IMG/VR virus record: IMGVR_UViG_3300021478_000048
Location: 1-46,126 of that record
DNA from: a virus
Reading direction: 5' to 3' (one strand)
DNA length: 46,126 bases
Of this stretch, positions 19,600 to 46,126 are shown piece after piece. The translations under genes were made by a program, and so were the position numbers. The notes beneath the pieces were generated by a model. That model did not search any database, was not told the DNA's origin, and was given only the letters and a program-made list of their open reading frames with translations. Within the stretch, counting starts at the first letter, position 1; each line of letters opens with the position of its first letter.

Positions 19600-20857
19600 A
19601 ACCGTCGAAGTACAGCCCGAGTTTCGGCTGCTCCATGCAGATCTGGAACCCGCCCCAGATGTAGTTGATGACGGAGAAGTCGAGCCCGCCGTCGTCGCCG
19701 TACGTCTGGAATTCGGTCTGGCCGTTGCGAGTCAGCGGGCCGGTCGGCTGCAACTCACCACGGAACCACTTGTCGATCGCCAGCATGTCGATTCGGCCAG
19801 CGGTTGCGAGTTTCGACACGAGCTTGTCATAGCCCGCGACGGTCGCAGCCCCCTGCTTCTTCATCATGTCGACGTTGCGATCGCCCTTCGCTTCGGTCCA
19901 GTTGAAGTGATTCCCGGCCAGGTAGGCATAGTTGGACAACGCCTGTTGCTGGTCATAGCCCATGTGCGCGAGCAGGTTGGTGTTCTCACCTTCCTCATCG
20001 GGCAACACGCGCCGGAAATAGATCAATCCGAGATCGAACGCCGAAGGCGAGATCGCGAAGTTATTGAGCGCCAGGTGCGGCGTCTTCAACTGGCCAGGGT
20101 ACGAAGACCGCGCCAGGTTGTTCCAGTTGCCGGTATTCGAATCGAGCTGATTCGAAGCCAGCGAACCGAGAGACGAGTTCACGATCCCCGGCGAACCGTC
20201 GACGACAAGGATGTCGCCCACGATCGTGCCCGCGGGAAGTGCGCCCTGGACATACAGCGTGCCGCCGGTCAGGGTCGAAGTGACCTTGCCGTTTACGTCG
20301 ATGTTGAGCGTGGTGAGCGGGCCGCGCGAAGGCTGACCGACACCAGGCAACACCTGGTAGACCTTTTGTCCCTGGAACTTGTTCGGGTTCGCGACCTGCA
20401 CCTGGTTGCCAGAGATCGCGGTGATGGTGTCGAGGACACCGGCCGCGTTCTGGTCCGAGTTGAGGAGCGACTCGCACAAATTCCGGTACTGCGAAATCTG
20501 CTTTTCGAGATTCCGCTTTTTGTAATCGCCGACCGCCTTTTTCGGGCTGTCAGTCGCGGACATTGCGAGATCGGTCATTTCGGTGCAAGCCAGGAAGAAC
20601 GCAGCCTGGACTTGCGCGCGAGCTTGCACGATCGCAGCGCCGCGGCCAGCAGGACCGCCGTCGGGGTCGACCTGACGGGTCAGCGTGCCGGGAACTAGAT
20701 CCAGCGTCCACCAAAGAACGCGCGAGGACATCACCTCGGTGGGGCGCTTCTCGATCTTGTCGTAAAGCATCGAGTCGCGCTGCATTGTGTCCGTGATTTT
20801 GCGGACATAGGCTTCGAGCTGCGAAGCCACGGCTTGAGCGTTATTTCCTTGTGCCAT
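19577..20857 (-). CDS. Major capsid protein
   Basis: 426 aa, SD AAGGTGAG 5 nt before ATG. The N-terminal helix (QLEAYVRKITDTMQRDSMLYDKI), DPDGGPAGRG loop and long helix (QARAQVQAAFFLACTEM) are followed by a large beta-rich insertion with QVQVANPNKFQGQKVYQ and GTIVGDILVVDG. The C-terminal region returns to mixed alpha/beta. The arrangement fits an HK97-fold coat protein. It lies after portal and scaffold, the usual order, and has its own 185-bp upstream gap, which may hold a promoter for high expression. Confidence 0.8.
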   Translation of the reverse strand: MAQGNNAQAVASQLEAYVRKITDTMQRDSMLYDKIEKRPTEVMSSRVLWWTLDLVPGTLTRQVDPDGGPAGRGAAIVQARAQVQAAFFLACTEMTDLAMSATDSPKKAVGDYKKRNLEKQISQYRNLCESLLNSDQNAAGVLDTITAISGNQVQVANPNKFQGQKVYQVLPGVGQPSRGPLTTLNIDVNGKVTSTLTGGTLYVQGALPAGTIVGDILVVDGSPGIVNSSLGSLASNQLDSNTGNWNNLARSSYPGQLKTPHLALNNFAISPSAFDLGLIYFRRVLPDEEGENTNLLAHMGYDQQQALSNYAYLAGNHFNWTEAKGDRNVDMMKKQGAATVAGYDKLVSKLATAGRIDMLAIDKWFRGELQPTGPLTRNGQTEFQTYGDDGGLDFSVINYIWGGFQICMEQPKLGLYFDGCGIAQGL

Positions 20858-35994: not shown

Positions 35995-36257
35995 ACCGCC
36001 CGCTGCTGGCCGCGGGCGGCGCGTGGGATCGCGAAGCGACTCGGCTGCGCGCCGAGCGCGATCGCGCCGCCTACGCCCTGGTCTCGACGGTCGGCGACAT
36101 CATTCTTTTTCAAGAGGCCCTCACGCTCGACGAAATTCTAGAGGATCTTACGCTCGCGCGTTCCGCGTTTCTTCACGCCGATGCCGCGGTCAAGCAATTC
36201 CACACTTCACAACCCAAAAAGGAGCACTCCAATGGCAAGCGCACATCAGCAGCCTAA
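35991..36257 (+). CDS. Hypothetical helical protein
   Basis: 88 aa from a GTG that overlaps the previous TGA (GTGA). Helical (ATRLRAERDRAAYALVSTVG; LTLDEILEDLTLARSAF) and basic at the C-terminus. The last 26 nt overlap the ATPase gene, and its C-terminal bases include that gene's SD. Confidence 0.65.
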   Translation: MNRPLLAAGGAWDREATRLRAERDRAAYALVSTVGDIILFQEALTLDEILEDLTLARSAFLHADAAVKQFHTSQPKKEHSNGKRTSAA

Positions 36258-37446
36258 CTTTCCCCCTCAACCGCATCTAATCATTCCAAACCAGAAACCG
36301 CAGATCATACCCGTCAAGGCCGGATTCATGGGCGAACAGGGCACCGGCAAAACTTCGTCGGCTGCTTTGTTCGCCGTTGCACTCTCGAAGCTGCACCACG
36401 CGGGCGCGCCGGTTCACGTCACCGACCCGGAACTCGGTTGGCAGTATCTCGATCCGGTCATCTTCGAGCGCGAGGGCGTCAAGCTGGTGCAGTACACCGT
36501 GCCCACGTTCGCCGCCATGTTGCAAGACATCAAGCGCGCCGAGCGCGAGGGTGCGTGTGTGTGGGCGGTCGAGCTCGGAAAGATCTGGATCGAGATCATC
36601 CGCACGTTGCAGAAGCAGAAACCGAACACTTGGGGCATGGAACTGCGCGCCATGTGGGACGATTTTGTCGCGCAATTCCTCAACTCCAAACTGCATTGCT
36701 TGGTGCTCGGCCGGATTCAGGACGTGATCGAGCAAGTCGTCAACGAAGACGGCAAGGTGCAGGACGTGAAGGTCGGCGAGGGCATGAAGGCGGGCGGCGC
36801 GAAAAACAATTTCGGGTACGAGCCGAATCTCGTCATCCGCATGAGTCTCGAACACAAACCGCGCACGCGCAAGGGTAAGCTCTTCGTCGACGAGGGCCGC
36901 GTCATCCATCGCGCGGTGATTGCGAAAGACCGCACCTGGGCGCTCAACGGGCAGGTGTTTCGCTGGGCTGATCGCGACGGTTACAGGCGCGGCGATTTCA
37001 AATATGTTTGGGAGTCGCTCGCACCGCACTTCGCGGCCGCACAGAGAACCCGGAAGTTTATCACTCTCGACGCCGCGGCAACGTCGGCGTCGATCATCGA
37101 GCCCGAGGGCAGCAACTCGGAATGGTACGCAGAGCGCAACCGGCGCGACGTGCTCATTGCCGAGATCTCGGCCTCGCTCGACATGAACTTCGGCGGCCGC
37201 AAGAGCGACGAGGTTCATGTGCGCCTCGCCGCGTCCGACCTGATTTTCGGCGTCAAGTCGAAGGAAGCGGCCGCAGCTCTGTCAATCGACAAACTGGAAC
37301 GCGGGCTCGCGATCCTGCACGCTTTCGAGCGGATCCCGGAAAAGAACCGAGGCTCGCGTGAGGCCGTGCTCTTGCAGGTGCATGATGCGATCGTTGCCTA
37401 TGATACGGCCGGGGAGCCGATCAGCGACGACGATATCCCCTTCTAA
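36232..37446 (+). CDS. Sak4-like RecA-fold ATPase with SSB-like C-terminal tip
   Basis: 404 aa; start chosen for AAGGAG 7 nt before ATG. RecA-like core: Walker A GEQGTGKT at 34-41, helix (SSAALFAVALSKL), then HVTDPELGW and a Walker B-like strand near 115-125 (CVWAVELGKIW), with FLNSKLHCLVLGR later. The C-terminal third is a helical extension of unknown fold. The final residues are DDDIPF, the exact form of the SSB acidic tip that recruits repair proteins. A Sak4-type annealing or recombination ATPase is the likely role. Confidence 0.8.
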   Translation: MASAHQQPNFPPQPHLIIPNQKPQIIPVKAGFMGEQGTGKTSSAALFAVALSKLHHAGAPVHVTDPELGWQYLDPVIFEREGVKLVQYTVPTFAAMLQDIKRAEREGACVWAVELGKIWIEIIRTLQKQKPNTWGMELRAMWDDFVAQFLNSKLHCLVLGRIQDVIEQVVNEDGKVQDVKVGEGMKAGGAKNNFGYEPNLVIRMSLEHKPRTRKGKLFVDEGRVIHRAVIAKDRTWALNGQVFRWADRDGYRRGDFKYVWESLAPHFAAAQRTRKFITLDAAATSASIIEPEGSNSEWYAERNRRDVLIAEISASLDMNFGGRKSDEVHVRLAASDLIFGVKSKEAAAALSIDKLERGLAILHAFERIPEKNRGSREAVLLQVHDAIVAYDTAGEPISDDDIPF

Positions 37447-40666: not shown

Positions 40667-40691
40667 AGCTATGGGCACGGTGCCCCTAGCT
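40667..40691. promoter_or_regulatory. Operator-like palindrome (sixth copy)
   Basis: The GGGCAC-g-GTGCCC core (40673-40685) is flanked by AGCTA on the left and TAGCT on the right. It is the most symmetric copy of the motif arrayed at 41841-41940. It lies between the stop of the HTH protein gene and the next start. Confidence 0.7.
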
Positions 40692-41373
40692 AGTTTTTCC
40701 CGTTCCCATTCGCACCTTCGGGCCGCCAGCTCGTCGGCGCAAAGGCACATTCGGCCAGGCGCGCGGGCATCCCGTTTTGCAGTGCGATGTTGCGGAAAAA
40801 TCCAAGCCGCTCACTCTCGCTGATGTGCCTGCGCACCAAGTTGGGCGCTGCGGCGGTCACCTGCGCGATCGTCTGCGCCCACGCATCCCCGTGCTTCTTG
40901 ATCCAATCCCGGATCGCGATCTCGTCTTCCGGGAAGACCATCGGTTGCTGTTCCGGGGTGCCCAGGAATTCGAGCACGCGCGGATCGTCGGGTGCGGCAT
41001 CGGGTTGCAGACGGTAGGTAGCGGGGCGGCGGCGGCCTGGCTTGGCCGCGGCAATGGGCGCGACGACACGGCGGCAGATCAGGCCGATCGTGGCGCGCTT
41101 CTGGTCGCCGTGGAGAATTCTGCGGACGGTGGAACGGCTGAGAGAACAGTAAGCAGCGATTCGGCCCAGCGAGGCGTACATCCATTCCCCGGTTTTCGAG
41201 TGCTCGAACATGGCGAGCAGAACGAGCTTCTCGTTGGGGGAAAGTTTCTTTTTCCAGACTTCAAACCGCAGCGGGGCCGCGCTGTTACGGGGCGCGGACT
41301 CGATCGGCACGGGCTCTTTTTTCCTACTAGCCGAGCCGTTCGGGTTGGGGTATTCTGACGCTGTTGGGGCCAT
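40690..41373 (-). CDS. Helix-turn-helix replication initiator-like / regulatory protein
   Basis: About 227 aa from ATG 41373. A winged-HTH-like segment lies near residues 45-100 (LSPNEKLVLLAMFEHS, then YASLGRIAAYCSLSRSTVRRIL). The C-terminal half is helical with Trp/Arg patches (IAIRDWIKKHGDAWAQTIAQV; PNLVRRHISESERLGFF). The pattern is like phage replication-initiation or 'helix-turn-helix domain' proteins. The palindrome array at 41.84-41.94 kb upstream and one copy directly downstream make it a strong candidate for their ligand. Confidence 0.65.
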   Translation of the reverse strand: MAPTASEYPNPNGSASRKKEPVPIESAPRNSAAPLRFEVWKKKLSPNEKLVLLAMFEHSKTGEWMYASLGRIAAYCSLSRSTVRRILHGDQKRATIGLICRRVVAPIAAAKPGRRRPATYRLQPDAAPDDPRVLEFLGTPEQQPMVFPEDEIAIRDWIKKHGDAWAQTIAQVTAAAPNLVRRHISESERLGFFRNIALQNGMPARLAECAFAPTSWRPEGANGNGKN

Positions 41374-41436: not shown

Positions 41437-41709
41437 TCAGGCGGCGAGCCCTTTCCGGGAAGATTCAGCCGACCGCGATGCGGCCGGGCGCAACCGCAAA
41501 GCCGGGTTCGGCGTTCCCCGGCTTCTCCGCGCGGCGATCGTCCGCGTGGGCGGTTTGTTCGGGGGGAGACTCGGCGGATGGCCCTGGCGCTCGCGATAGC
41601 GGCGCAAGGCTTCGCGGTTCTTGCATTTCTTCGAGTGGTAGAGCTGGATTTCGCGAATCGGCTCGAAGAGCACCTCGCAATCCCTGGCGGCGCATAAACG
41701 GTTTTCCAT
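41437..41709 (-). CDS. Small zinc-finger protein
   Basis: 90 aa; the N-terminus LCAARDCEVLFEP, then YHSKKCKNREALRRYRER resembles a CGNR-like or 'C-x4-C ... H-x3-C' finger followed by a basic helix. The C-terminal half is Pro/Arg-rich. It starts beside a TTGACA-bearing promoter (41717-41746). Confidence 0.6.
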   Translation of the reverse strand: MENRLCAARDCEVLFEPIREIQLYHSKKCKNREALRRYRERQGHPPSLPPNKPPTRTIAARRSRGTPNPALRLRPAASRSAESSRKGLAA

Positions 41710-41840: not shown

Positions 41841-41940
41841 GCGCACCGTGCCCATACCCTAGCGCACCGTGCCCCTAGTCATGGCGCATGGTGCGCTATT
41901 GCCTGGCGCACGGTGCCCCACTCCTATGGGCACGGTGCCC
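41841..41940. repeat. Five-copy palindromic array, 21-22 bp period
   Basis: Core sequences: GCGCACCGTGCCC at 41841-41853 and 41862-41874, GCGCATGGTGCGC at 41884-41896, GCGCACGGTGCCC at 41906-41918 and GGGCACGGTGCCC at 41928-41940. Centres are 21, 22, 22 and 22 bp apart, two helical turns, so bound proteins would line up on one DNA face. Confidence 0.85.
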
Positions 41941-41950
41941 TCCGAATTGA

Positions 41951-42115
41951 GGTTTTGATCTGGGTTTTGATCTTGAAACTGAACCATTAAAAGCAACCGG
42001 CGAGATCAACACCAGGAAGGTGCGCCGCCAAGAACGCGGCGCTCTAGTCGGCAGATCAAAACCAAGCGGAGCGCGCCAAGAACGCGCGCCCCCTGCGAAG
42101 ATCAAGATCAAAACC
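41951..42115. repeat. Two direct and two inverted copies of GGTTTTGATCT
   Basis: GGTTTTGATCT at 41951-41961 and 41963-41973, and the complement AGATCAAAACC at 42053-42063 and 42105-42115. They enclose the two CAAGAAC-loop hairpins. Confidence 0.75.
42022..42089 (+). other. Two hairpins with identical CAAGAAC loops
   Basis: 42022-42042: stem GCGCCGC and complement around loop CAAGAAC. 42071-42089: stem GCGCGC and complement around the same loop CAAGAAC. Different stems with the same loop suggest selection on structure. Confidence 0.6.
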
Positions 42116-42278
42116 TCGCCTGTTGAAGCGGCGAAGCAACTGCAACACCAAATGCAACACCAACCCCGCGGTGCAAAACCGGGGAGAAAATCGCCCTGCT
42201 GTTAACGACTCAGGTTCCCGATTTTTCCTTCCCGCTCTAAAATCCCCGTGGCCCTGGGGGCGAGGCCGTGTAAAGTTC

Positions 42279-42298
42279 GTGCTAGCACGTGCTAGCAC
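42279..42298. promoter_or_regulatory. Tandem palindrome upstream of 128-aa gene
   Basis: GTGCTAGCAC, itself a perfect 10-bp palindrome, occurs twice without a gap, ending 18 bp before the ATG. Operator-like. Confidence 0.6.
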
Positions 42299-42316: not shown

Positions 42317-42703
42317 ATGGCCAACCGTGACCGCACTACCTGCCGCCGCTGTAAAGCAATCGTCGAGGTCTCCGACACGGGGATCTCGGTTTTCATGTTC
42401 TGCCAAACAATCGGCGTGAAGCCGCGGCGAAAAGCCGCCGCGCCCACGATGTACATCTGCCCGTCGTGTGTGATGGTGATGGCCGTGAAGCCGAGCCCCG
42501 AGGAGTGGGACTTCTTCAACCTCAGCGCCTACCACATGGTCCGCAACCTCACGGGGATGCATCGCGTCGAGACCCAGGCCGCGATGGGGCGCATGTTCGA
42601 ACTGGTGATCGAGCGCGAGGGCCAGATCTCGGAAGCCGAGATCAACGCCAATCTGCCAGCAGCGGAGATCCTGCCGCCGCGGCGACTGCGGGCTGCGAGC
42701 TGA
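42317..42703 (+). CDS. Small zinc-ribbon-like regulator candidate
   Basis: 128 aa; SD AAAGGAAG 4 nt before ATG. N-terminal CRRC and CPSC pairs 36 residues apart make a probable zinc site, with a central helical part (NLSAYHMVRNLTGMHRVE) and a helical C-terminus. It is separately transcribed behind a tandem palindrome in the control region. A regulatory role is inferred from location only. Confidence 0.65.
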   Translation: MANRDRTTCRRCKAIVEVSDTGISVFMFCQTIGVKPRRKAAAPTMYICPSCVMVMAVKPSPEEWDFFNLSAYHMVRNLTGMHRVETQAAMGRMFELVIEREGQISEAEINANLPAAEILPPRRLRAAS

Positions 42704-42775: not shown

Positions 42776-43069
42776 TTAGACGTTCACTTCTTCAAATTCA
42801 AATTGCCGCACCGCAGCGTGCGCCCAGGCTTTCGGCATCTGGTCCGGCTGCCGTTTCGGGTGCAGAATGGCCGCCTGGTAATTGTCGACGACCTGGATCC
42901 CCTTGCCCTCGGCCGAGATCCGCACGATCTTGCCCGCGCCCCCGGCGCGTGTGGCGATGTCCAGGGCGAGCCGATCGGCGCGCTCATAGTCGGCCGCGGC
43001 GCGTTCCTTCGCCTTTACAAATTTGCGATACTTCGCCGCGATCGCGCGCTCTTTACGGGTGAGGCTCAC
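42776..43069 (-). CDS. Hypothetical protein after anti-defence candidate
   Basis: 97 aa. Basic helical N-terminus (MSLTRKERAIAAKYRKFV, KAKERAAADYERADRLAL) and a small beta part (GKIVRISAEGKGIQVVDN). Starts in a 4-nt overlap with the Acb2/Tad1-like gene; last gene before the terminator. The function is unknown. Confidence 0.65.
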   Translation of the reverse strand: MSLTRKERAIAAKYRKFVKAKERAAADYERADRLALDIATRAGGAGKIVRISAEGKGIQVVDNYQAAILHPKRQPDQMPKAWAHAAVRQFEFEEVNV

Positions 43070-43410
43070 AGAGACAAACCGCCAAGCGCAACCGCGGCGT
43101 TGGCCGTCATCTTTGCTTCAATGATGGTGTGAATGGCCGCCGAGCGGTTGACGCAGGGCGGGCAGTTTTGCAAAACCACTTCCGCGAAATTCTTAGCCGC
43201 CTGATTGATCGCCTGAAACTTCGGCGCAGTCTCGGCCGTGGGCGGGTGATAGGTGAAGAGCTCGGAGAGGATCTCGGCGTCGCTCATGGCGCGGCCTGCG
43301 CACCCCGCCTCGGCATAGAGCTTCTCGGCGTACATCTTTTCTTCACCGCCGCCGGGCGCGCGCCTGGTGCGCGGATATGGGTCTGCGGTTGTTTTTCCGT
43401 TGTCGCACAT
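43066..43410 (-). CDS. Acb2/Tad1-like cyclic-nucleotide sponge candidate
   Basis: 114 aa from ATG 43410 (internal Mets at 26 and 42 are possible starts). The last 65 residues match the hairpin-domain pattern: SELFTYHPPTAE near 49-60, then FQAINQAAKNFAEVVL, NCPPCVNRSAAIH near 82-94, and a final helix AKMTANAAVALGG. The F-x-YHPP, CPP and A/M-x-ANA-x-A landmarks are those of Tad1/Acb2 proteins, which bind signalling cyclic nucleotides and block Thoeris or CBASS. The usual Arg in the first helix is Asn/Gln here. The place at the end of the lysis cassette is unusual for an early anti-defence gene. Confidence 0.7.
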   Translation of the reverse strand: MCDNGKTTADPYPRTRRAPGGGEEKMYAEKLYAEAGCAGRAMSDAEILSELFTYHPPTAETAPKFQAINQAAKNFAEVVLQNCPPCVNRSAAIHTIIEAKMTANAAVALGGLSL

Positions 43411-45450: not shown

Positions 45451-46126
45451 CTAATTCTTCGAACAAAAAATCACTTTCACCCACGGGGGCGCGGGATTGA
45501 ACGCATTCCCCGAGAACGTAGCTTGGCTCACCGTGCCCGAGGGCGTCAAGGTGTGCGTATGTCCGGCGAGCGCGGATCCGGTGAAGGGCTCGGCCGGAAC
45601 GGTGACCGATGCGCCGCTGAATGCGGGCACACCAGCGGGCCAGGAAATTGTTTCGGCCGGGATCGTGCCTAAGCTACCATTCAGTATTGGAACGGACGCA
45701 GGCCAGGAGATTGTTTCGGCCGGTACGGTGCCCGCGGATCCTGAGAAGGTCTCGGCCGGAACGGTGTGCGTATGGCTCGGGTGCGTGTGCGTGTTGTTCG
45801 AGACGCTGTTGCCGCTGCCCGTGCTGACGACAATCGCCGTGGTTGCCGTCGCCGTGATCGCGGTGCCCCCGGTCGTCGTGGTGCTGTTCGTGCCCGCCGG
45901 GGTGAAGGAAACAGTCGAGTTCGTCGGCACCGACGCGGGCCATGCGATCGTGCCGGTCGGTGTGAAGCTCGCCGTCGAGTTGGTCGGCACGCCCGCGGGC
46001 CATGCGATCGTGCCGGTCGGTGTGATCGAAGTTGTGCCGTTCGTGCCCGCCGGGGTTCCGCCACTGGTCGAGCTGGTCGTCTGATTCGCGGTGCCCGAGA
46101 AGGTCGGCGGGGAGACGGGGCCCGCG
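45451..46126 (-). CDS. Tail collar-like secreted fibre protein, C-terminal part
   Basis: This is the continuation of the gene starting at 413. Bases 45980-46126 duplicate 1-147, so the unique part is 45451-45979. It carries Thr/Ser/Pro-rich tandem repeats of about 20 residues (TIAWPA-x-VPTNST-x-SFTP), a second repeat type (VPAETISWPA), two His clusters (NTHTHPSHTHT and AGHTHT) and the C-terminus PPWVKVIFCSKN. HxH clusters followed by a PPW/Y-VIFC-like end are typical of trimeric phage collar or fibre tips, where the His residues can bind metal. It lies directly upstream of the lysis genes. Confidence 0.75.
   Translation of the reverse strand, partial: AGPVSPPTFSGTANQTTSSTSGGTPAGTNGTTSITPTGTIAWPAGVPTNSTASFTPTGTIAWPASVPTNSTVSFTPAGTNSTTTTGGTAITATATTAIVVSTGSGNSVSNNTHTHPSHTHTVPAETFSGSAGTVPAETISWPASVPILNGSLGTIPAETISWPAGVPAFSGASVTVPAEPFTGSALAGHTHTLTPSGTVSQATFSGNAFNPAPPWVKVIFCSKN
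45901..46020 (-). repeat. 60-bp in-frame tandem repeat in collar gene
   Basis: Two consecutive 60-base units (45901-45960 and 45961-46020) share long identical blocks such as ccatgcgatcgtgccggtcg and encode a 20-residue repeat. A second, 63-base repeat type is at about 45635-45730. The period is a multiple of three, so unit gain or loss keeps the frame. Confidence 0.8.
45980..46126. repeat. Terminal overlap with bases 1-147 (circular closure)
   Basis: Bases 45980-46126 match 1-147 except at left positions 126, 131 and 140, where the right copy has g each time. The overlap includes sequence that is unique within the gene, so it is not merely the internal repeat. Clustering of mismatches at the extreme tip looks like end-of-assembly error. 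Closing here joins the collar-like gene in frame. Confidence 0.85.

Follow-up and report, generated by a model that had tools for sequence, protein, structure and literature searches.

The stretch of DNA analysed here (the window) is a 46,126-base viral record that encodes a terminase large subunit, a tyrosine-integrase-like protein and an endolysin. Its two ends (1-147 and 45980-46126) repeat over 147 bp with three mismatches, so that the window probably represents a nearly complete genome of circular or terminally redundant form; the contig may in fact be a full circle, or a permuted genome, that was not classed as such. The end repeat falls in a repetitive, tail-fibre-like region. The locus of interest (Table 1) holds a gene for a winged-helix protein, which matched Pfam HTH_36 above the cut-off (E 1.1e-10) and PHROGs families of the replication-initiation or O-like kind (E 2.6e-5 to 3.3e-5), the O-like phrog_391 match (3.3e-5) covering residues 48-96 of the scanned reading frame. 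An array of five near-palindromes lies about 470 bp (0.5 kb) from the start codon of this gene, in intergenic DNA between divergent genes.

Table 1 Features of the candidate origin region and its borders, in window coordinates
Feature	Coordinates	Strand	Basis or description
Sixth, most symmetric copy of the array site	40669-40689	.	Immediately 3' of the HTH gene, against its stop codon
HTH_36 winged-helix protein, 227 aa, proposed replication initiator	40690-41373	-	Pfam, PHROGs
Small CGNR-zinc-finger-like ORF, between initiator and array	41437-41709	-	Pfam zf-CGNR E 1.1e-4, below cut-off
Candidate iteron array, five near-palindromes	41841-41940	.	Repeat/dyad test, shuffles, blind scan
Array sites 1 to 5	41841-41853, 41862-41874, 41884-41896, 41906-41918, 41928-41940	.	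Motif GSGCAYSGTGCSC, 13 bp
AT-rich stretch, candidate unwinding element	41953-41992	.	40-mer, 70% AT in a 62% GC genome
GC hairpin a	42022-42042	.	GCGCCGC-CAAGAAC-GCGGCGC; compensatory stem changes across loci
GC hairpin b	42071-42089	.	GCGCGC-CAAGAAC-GCGCGC; same block in L123
Conserved non-coding element CGCCTG-n6-CGGCGAAGCAA	42117-42139	+	Cross-locus comparison
Zinc-ribbon-like protein, right border of the region	42317-42703	+	Homologues in L121, L122, L124, L132 and L136

The array stands far above chance. Its motif, at no more than one mismatch, gave 26 strand-hits in the window compared with 3.99 ± 2.44 in dinucleotide shuffles, a count reached by none of 100 shuffles, and in a sliding repeat-plus-dyad test over the full 46 kb the array was the sole high scorer (repeat 35/39, dyad 0.83; runner-up dyad score elsewhere, 0.61). 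A preliminary description of this DNA had reported five 13-mers sharing a GCAC-n-GTGC core; the five near-palindromes are real, but the exact core is present in four, site 3 reading GCATGGTGC. Recomputed site centres (41847, 41868, 41890, 41912 and 41934) confirm the reported steps of 21, 22, 22 and 22 bp. The further claim that the sites lie on one face of the DNA is correct only approximately, since the four steps span 87 bp or ~8.3 helical turns, and relatives use spacings of 16-17 bp as often as 21-23 bp; because these spacings differ by about half a helical turn, sites on one face are not generally required, and helical phasing is not supported as a conserved rule. The sixth copy, described earlier as lying at the far end of the HTH gene, proved genuine: it scores 19.8, in line with the array sites (18.4-23.6), compared with a best score of 12.3 in reversed sequence, and it has an exact 17-mer in common with site 5. 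None of six relatives scanned has a counterpart. This copy is possibly an extra or autoregulatory site, and it fits an operator as well as an origin.

To the right of the array, the AT-rich stretch carries the direct repeat GGTTTTGATCT at 41951 and 41963, and relatives with palindromic arrays also have an AT-rich stretch between array and hairpin. The hairpin loop, in an alignment made by eye, is 7 nt long in 7 of 14 loci; three stem positions are changed on both sides, giving a covariation score that was reached by none of 500 shuffles in a small set chosen by eye. As terminators the hairpins are unconvincing because long T runs do not directly follow them. The element beyond, CGCCTG-n(5-7)-CGGCGAAGCAA across loci and often preceded by TTTTTTGGACGAGCAACCCCAA, occurs as a single copy per genome in 13 of 16 records and never in the backward-read control, and a short stem within it shows one compensatory change; in L122 the element is too degenerate to match and the constant core is weak. 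Gap lengths of 5, 6 and 7 nt are incompatible with one conserved reading frame, and a coding interpretation (PVEAAKQ in some frames) was rejected for this reason. A search of Rfam returned nothing over the gathering score, no DnaA box (TTATCCACA, up to one mismatch) was found in the window region, and GC skew showed no switch at the array. The sequence TTTTCCACA occurs once each in L132, L145 and L147.

Relatives were not found by direct searches, whether with the HTH protein as query against viral contigs, by megablast against phages or by tblastn with the initiator of L121, because the initiator protein diverges too fast; a search of viral contigs for the GCAC-n-GTGC pair gave many matches among those listed, and the motif itself is not conserved. 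The neighbouring ATPase (36229-37446) led to seven relatives at 52-70% identity, four of which (L121-L124) span the syntenic region. Comparison of these four revealed the conserved element, and a search with it yielded 15 further contigs, some of them near-duplicates. The same region is thus represented in about 18 distinct uncultivated viral contigs, several of the relatives being fragments. At the sensitivities tried, none of 50,697 sequenced phage records matched the phage group, and no prophage was found in genome_contigs; one match there (L169) is attributed to chance, having neither array nor element and looking like coding sequence.

Across loci, the order is array, AT-rich stretch, in most cases a GC hairpin, and then the conserved element. 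In nearly every locus a locus-specific repeat array lies between the small ORF and the element and differs in sequence from locus to locus, for example GCAATnATTGC in L121, GGCAAC-n-TGCCGAT in L122, GGACAAGTTGGCC in L123, TGACAATTTGTC in L124, TGATCACTTTGA in L132, GGTCAGATTGACC in L136, GTCGCAGCGAC in L147 and TGACAACTTGTCA in L174. The search for an array beside orthologues of the HTH gene, which the preliminary description had proposed, was positive, with a significant array of its own sequence in the same place in the window and in 12/12 relatives that have the gene. Palindromy was assessed by finding the best four repeats and then comparing their consensus with its own reverse complement; the dyad score was reached in 0/200 shuffles for the window, L121, L122, L123, L124, L132, L136, L147 and L171-L174 and in 1/200 for L175, and the only failure in the HTH class was L145, in which the array repeat itself was significant. 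In a blind scan of 2,787 stretches from 12 loci, all stretches with REP>=27 and DYAD>=0.70 were the arrays. In L123 the array-to-element block (19769-20071, corresponding to 41841-42140 of the window) has the opposite orientation with respect to the HTH gene, as though the candidate origin core could flip or be exchanged as a unit.

Both the type and the sequence of the array are linked to the DNA-binding domain of the adjacent protein. Palindromic arrays were present in 12 of 13 loci with the HTH gene versus none of four with a cold-shock-domain (CSD) protein (Fisher 0.002, calculated by hand; relatedness among the phages inflates this and all other association statistics). The repeats of L128, L129, L133 (with its near-duplicate L156) and L150 are purine-rich or of the CCACAA type and have no dyad (ACAACAACAAAA in L129). 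It is exactly these loci, together with the L133-like L154, that have no HTH gene in its usual position and encode a small CSD protein next to a second protein; the purine repeats of L154 did not pass the repeat test in the standard stretch. The CSD domain exceeded the Pfam cut-off in three of them (L128, L129 and L133) and gave weak matches in L150 and L154, and none of eight genomes searched had both CSD and HTH_36. The small CGNR-like ORF adjoins both array types and therefore does not set the type. Among the HTH-class proteins scanned with Pfam, those of the window, L122 and L132 were the only ones to match a wHTH at E<0.001, and those of L145 and L147 gave no HTH match; L145, L147 and L171-L175 are assigned to the class by synteny, an N-terminal signature and mutual similarity. 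Weak O-like PHROG matches, the best being those of L124 and L132, add to the assignment of relatives, and the initiators of L121 and L124 have the HTH fused to a DnaA_N domain (E 1.5e-9 and 5.5e-7, above the cut-off), a domain that was not found in the window's protein. AlphaFold2 models of the window and L147 proteins (pLDDT 45 and 44, from alignments without depth) were unusable.

The expectation that the array drifts with the HTH gene was also borne out. Within the HTH class, the more alike two proteins were in their N-terminal, DNA-binding part, the more alike were their arrays (Mantel r 0.29, p 0.022), and no such correlation held for the C-terminal part (r 0.14, p 0.16). Of the four L175 sites in this comparison, one had been picked by hand. 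Two pairs of loci separate the parts further. L124 and L174 have a wHTH (YRTVQRHIDKL and YRTVQRHIDRL) and the motif TGACAAnTTGTC in common, and their arrays are the most similar of all pairs (0.80), but they differ in the C-terminal domain and the neighbouring ORF. L132 and the window have gene 42317 and its operator in common, but both the wHTH and the array are different. These recombinant pairs are the clearest cases and offer the best guard against relatedness inflating the statistics. The pattern indicates that the putative iterons and the DNA-binding domain of the initiator are swapped together between related phages, with the core mostly kept.

Several neighbouring features deserve description in their own right. 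Each homologue of gene 42317 has an operator-like motif of its own upstream, palindromic or repeated: a tandem GTGCTAGCAC in the window (42279-42298) and L132 (L161:7410), a tandem CTATTAATAG in L122 (19709-19735), GCCGCTAGCGGC in L121 (20345) and L136 (L163), and a motif at 20830-20870 in L124. The gene and its motif are perhaps a second autoregulated system beside the candidate origin. Just right of the candidate origin, the window encodes a small Acb2/Tad1 hairpin-domain protein (43066-43410, minus strand; Pfam PF24729 E 6e-9, above cut-off), with homologues recognized by eye in L124 (20384-20728, minus strand) and near the same place in L128; the PF24729 Acb2/Tad1 family comprises phage anti-CBASS and anti-Thoeris sponges. 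The motif CTGTTAACGACTCAGGTTCCC (42199-42219), common only to the window and L121 (19794-19814, CTGTTAACCGACAAGGTTCCC), resembles part of the tRNA-Asn anticodon arm and is possibly an attP core. About 3 kb left of the element, L128 and L147 (L159, L165) encode a protein with long pentapeptide-like ADLAYRADLAD repeats, and a P-loop ATPase resembling HerA/FtsK-type translocases, with C-terminal HTH-like repeats, is encoded in L121 (15324-17066, minus strand) directly downstream of the DnaA_N-bearing initiator and is absent from that place in the window.

We consider it likely that the array is the iteron block of the replication origin of this phage and that it is recognized by the wHTH protein encoded at 40690-41373. 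The best reading of the sequences is a lambda-like iteron origin that lies outside the initiator gene and carries an exchangeable recognition cassette. An origin role, offered as inference in the preliminary description, is well supported by the comparison across relatives. In the mechanism that we propose, the wHTH protein would bind the five palindromes, probably as dimers, and the resulting nucleoprotein complex would strain and open the AT-rich stretch to the right of the array, onto which the host DnaB helicase would be loaded; the GC hairpins and conserved element (42022-42139) would act as a constant core, host-factor binding or priming being guesses as to what it does. DnaA contacts the DnaB helicase through its DnaA_N domain (PMC5448010, PMC6127211). 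A replication initiator would be expected to join a DNA-binding domain to one that recruits the helicase and to be found next to iterons and an AT-rich stretch; because the window's HTH_36 protein is without DnaA_N, we infer its initiator role from its position and its relatives. Searches of eight genomes yielded no DnaB gene (control positive in 14/14 known genomes), and none of the neighbouring proteins scanned matched a P or DnaC-like helicase loader.

An alternative interpretation is that the HTH protein is a transcription regulator, such as a repressor or early switch, and that the palindromes are operators for the leftward initiator operon and the rightward genes. We consider this unlikely, even though the array has a divergent intergenic location and the sixth copy sits between the HTH gene and the next downstream gene, because DnaA_N is fused to the HTH in two relatives, the PHROG matches are to replication initiators and not repressors, the flanking AT-rich stretch, the hairpin and the single-copy element do not belong to an operator, and the array is kept as non-palindromic repeats where the cold-shock protein replaces the HTH. 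Control of the adjacent block of small proteins, as suggested in the preliminary description, is likewise not supported: no sigma-70-like promoter was found at or beside the array, a result that counts against both readings, and gene 42317 has its own palindrome, which is common to L132 despite the different array of that locus. Initiators commonly autoregulate, however, so an operator role may hold in addition. Integration or packaging (integrase arm sites, cos or pac) is a highly improbable function for the array, for although the ~21-bp tRNA-Asn-like motif that the window has in common with L121 lies only 0.3 kb away, this motif is confined to two loci, the integrase-like and terminase genes are 8 kb and 11 kb distant, and the array type tracks the wHTH or CSD gene. 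Regular palindromic arrays are typical of some centromeres, but we give very little credence to a parS-like partition centromere of a plasmid-like prophage because a ParA (AAA_31) gene is absent from the eight genomes searched (control positive in 14/14 known genomes), the window encodes a tyrosine-integrase-like protein and the neighbouring gene is initiator-like.

The proposed replication origin was compared with the three known systems closest to it. In ori-lambda, 19-bp imperfect inverted-repeat iterons beside an AT-rich tract are bound by O, and iterons number four in lambda and six in Stx phages (PMC7466680). The window likewise has several imperfect inverted repeats next to an AT-rich tract, an HTH-type DNA-binding part with an O-like match and no DnaB gene of its own that we could find, so that the host helicase is presumably used. 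However, the iterons of lambda lie inside the initiator gene, whereas those here are intergenic with a small ORF intervening, and we therefore do not file the locus as a member of ori-lambda; it also differs in its spacing of 16-17 or 21-23 bp, in iteron sequences that vary between relatives, in the GC hairpin and 23-bp conserved element that follow, and in the DnaA_N that appears to replace a P-like partner in two relatives. Iteron plasmids (RepA/Rep_3, for example RK2 and R6K) similarly have iterons, an AT-rich unwinding element and an adjacent initiator gene, but the iterons of the wHTH class are palindromic and not simple direct repeats, and the window protein and its relatives have no Rep_3 match, with weak RP-C only in L123 and L132. 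The DnaA_N domain of two relatives recalls bacterial oriC/DnaA, but the initiators here have no match to an AAA+ or DnaA DNA-binding domain.

This reading would predict where a group of uncultivated dsDNA phages starts replication, with which initiator and at which recognition motif. Across the loci, initiator and origin vary in step, a natural series that is useful for studying DNA recognition by wHTH initiators; in the two recombinant pairs the DNA-binding part is already uncoupled from the rest. We tentatively raise, as a possibility rather than an expectation, that the loci represent a modular class of phage origins, in which one conserved core, made up of the AT-rich stretch, the GC hairpin and the CGCCTG-n-CGGCGAAGCAA element, would be served by interchangeable cassettes, either a wHTH with palindromic iterons or a CSD protein with non-palindromic purine- or CCACAA-rich repeats. 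If this is true, the CSD variant would be an origin whose recognition falls to a nucleic-acid chaperone fold, one that normally binds single strands, meaning that an unrelated fold can take over origin recognition while the rest of the origin is not replaced, and such a takeover would bear on how replicons escape from incompatibility and exclusion.
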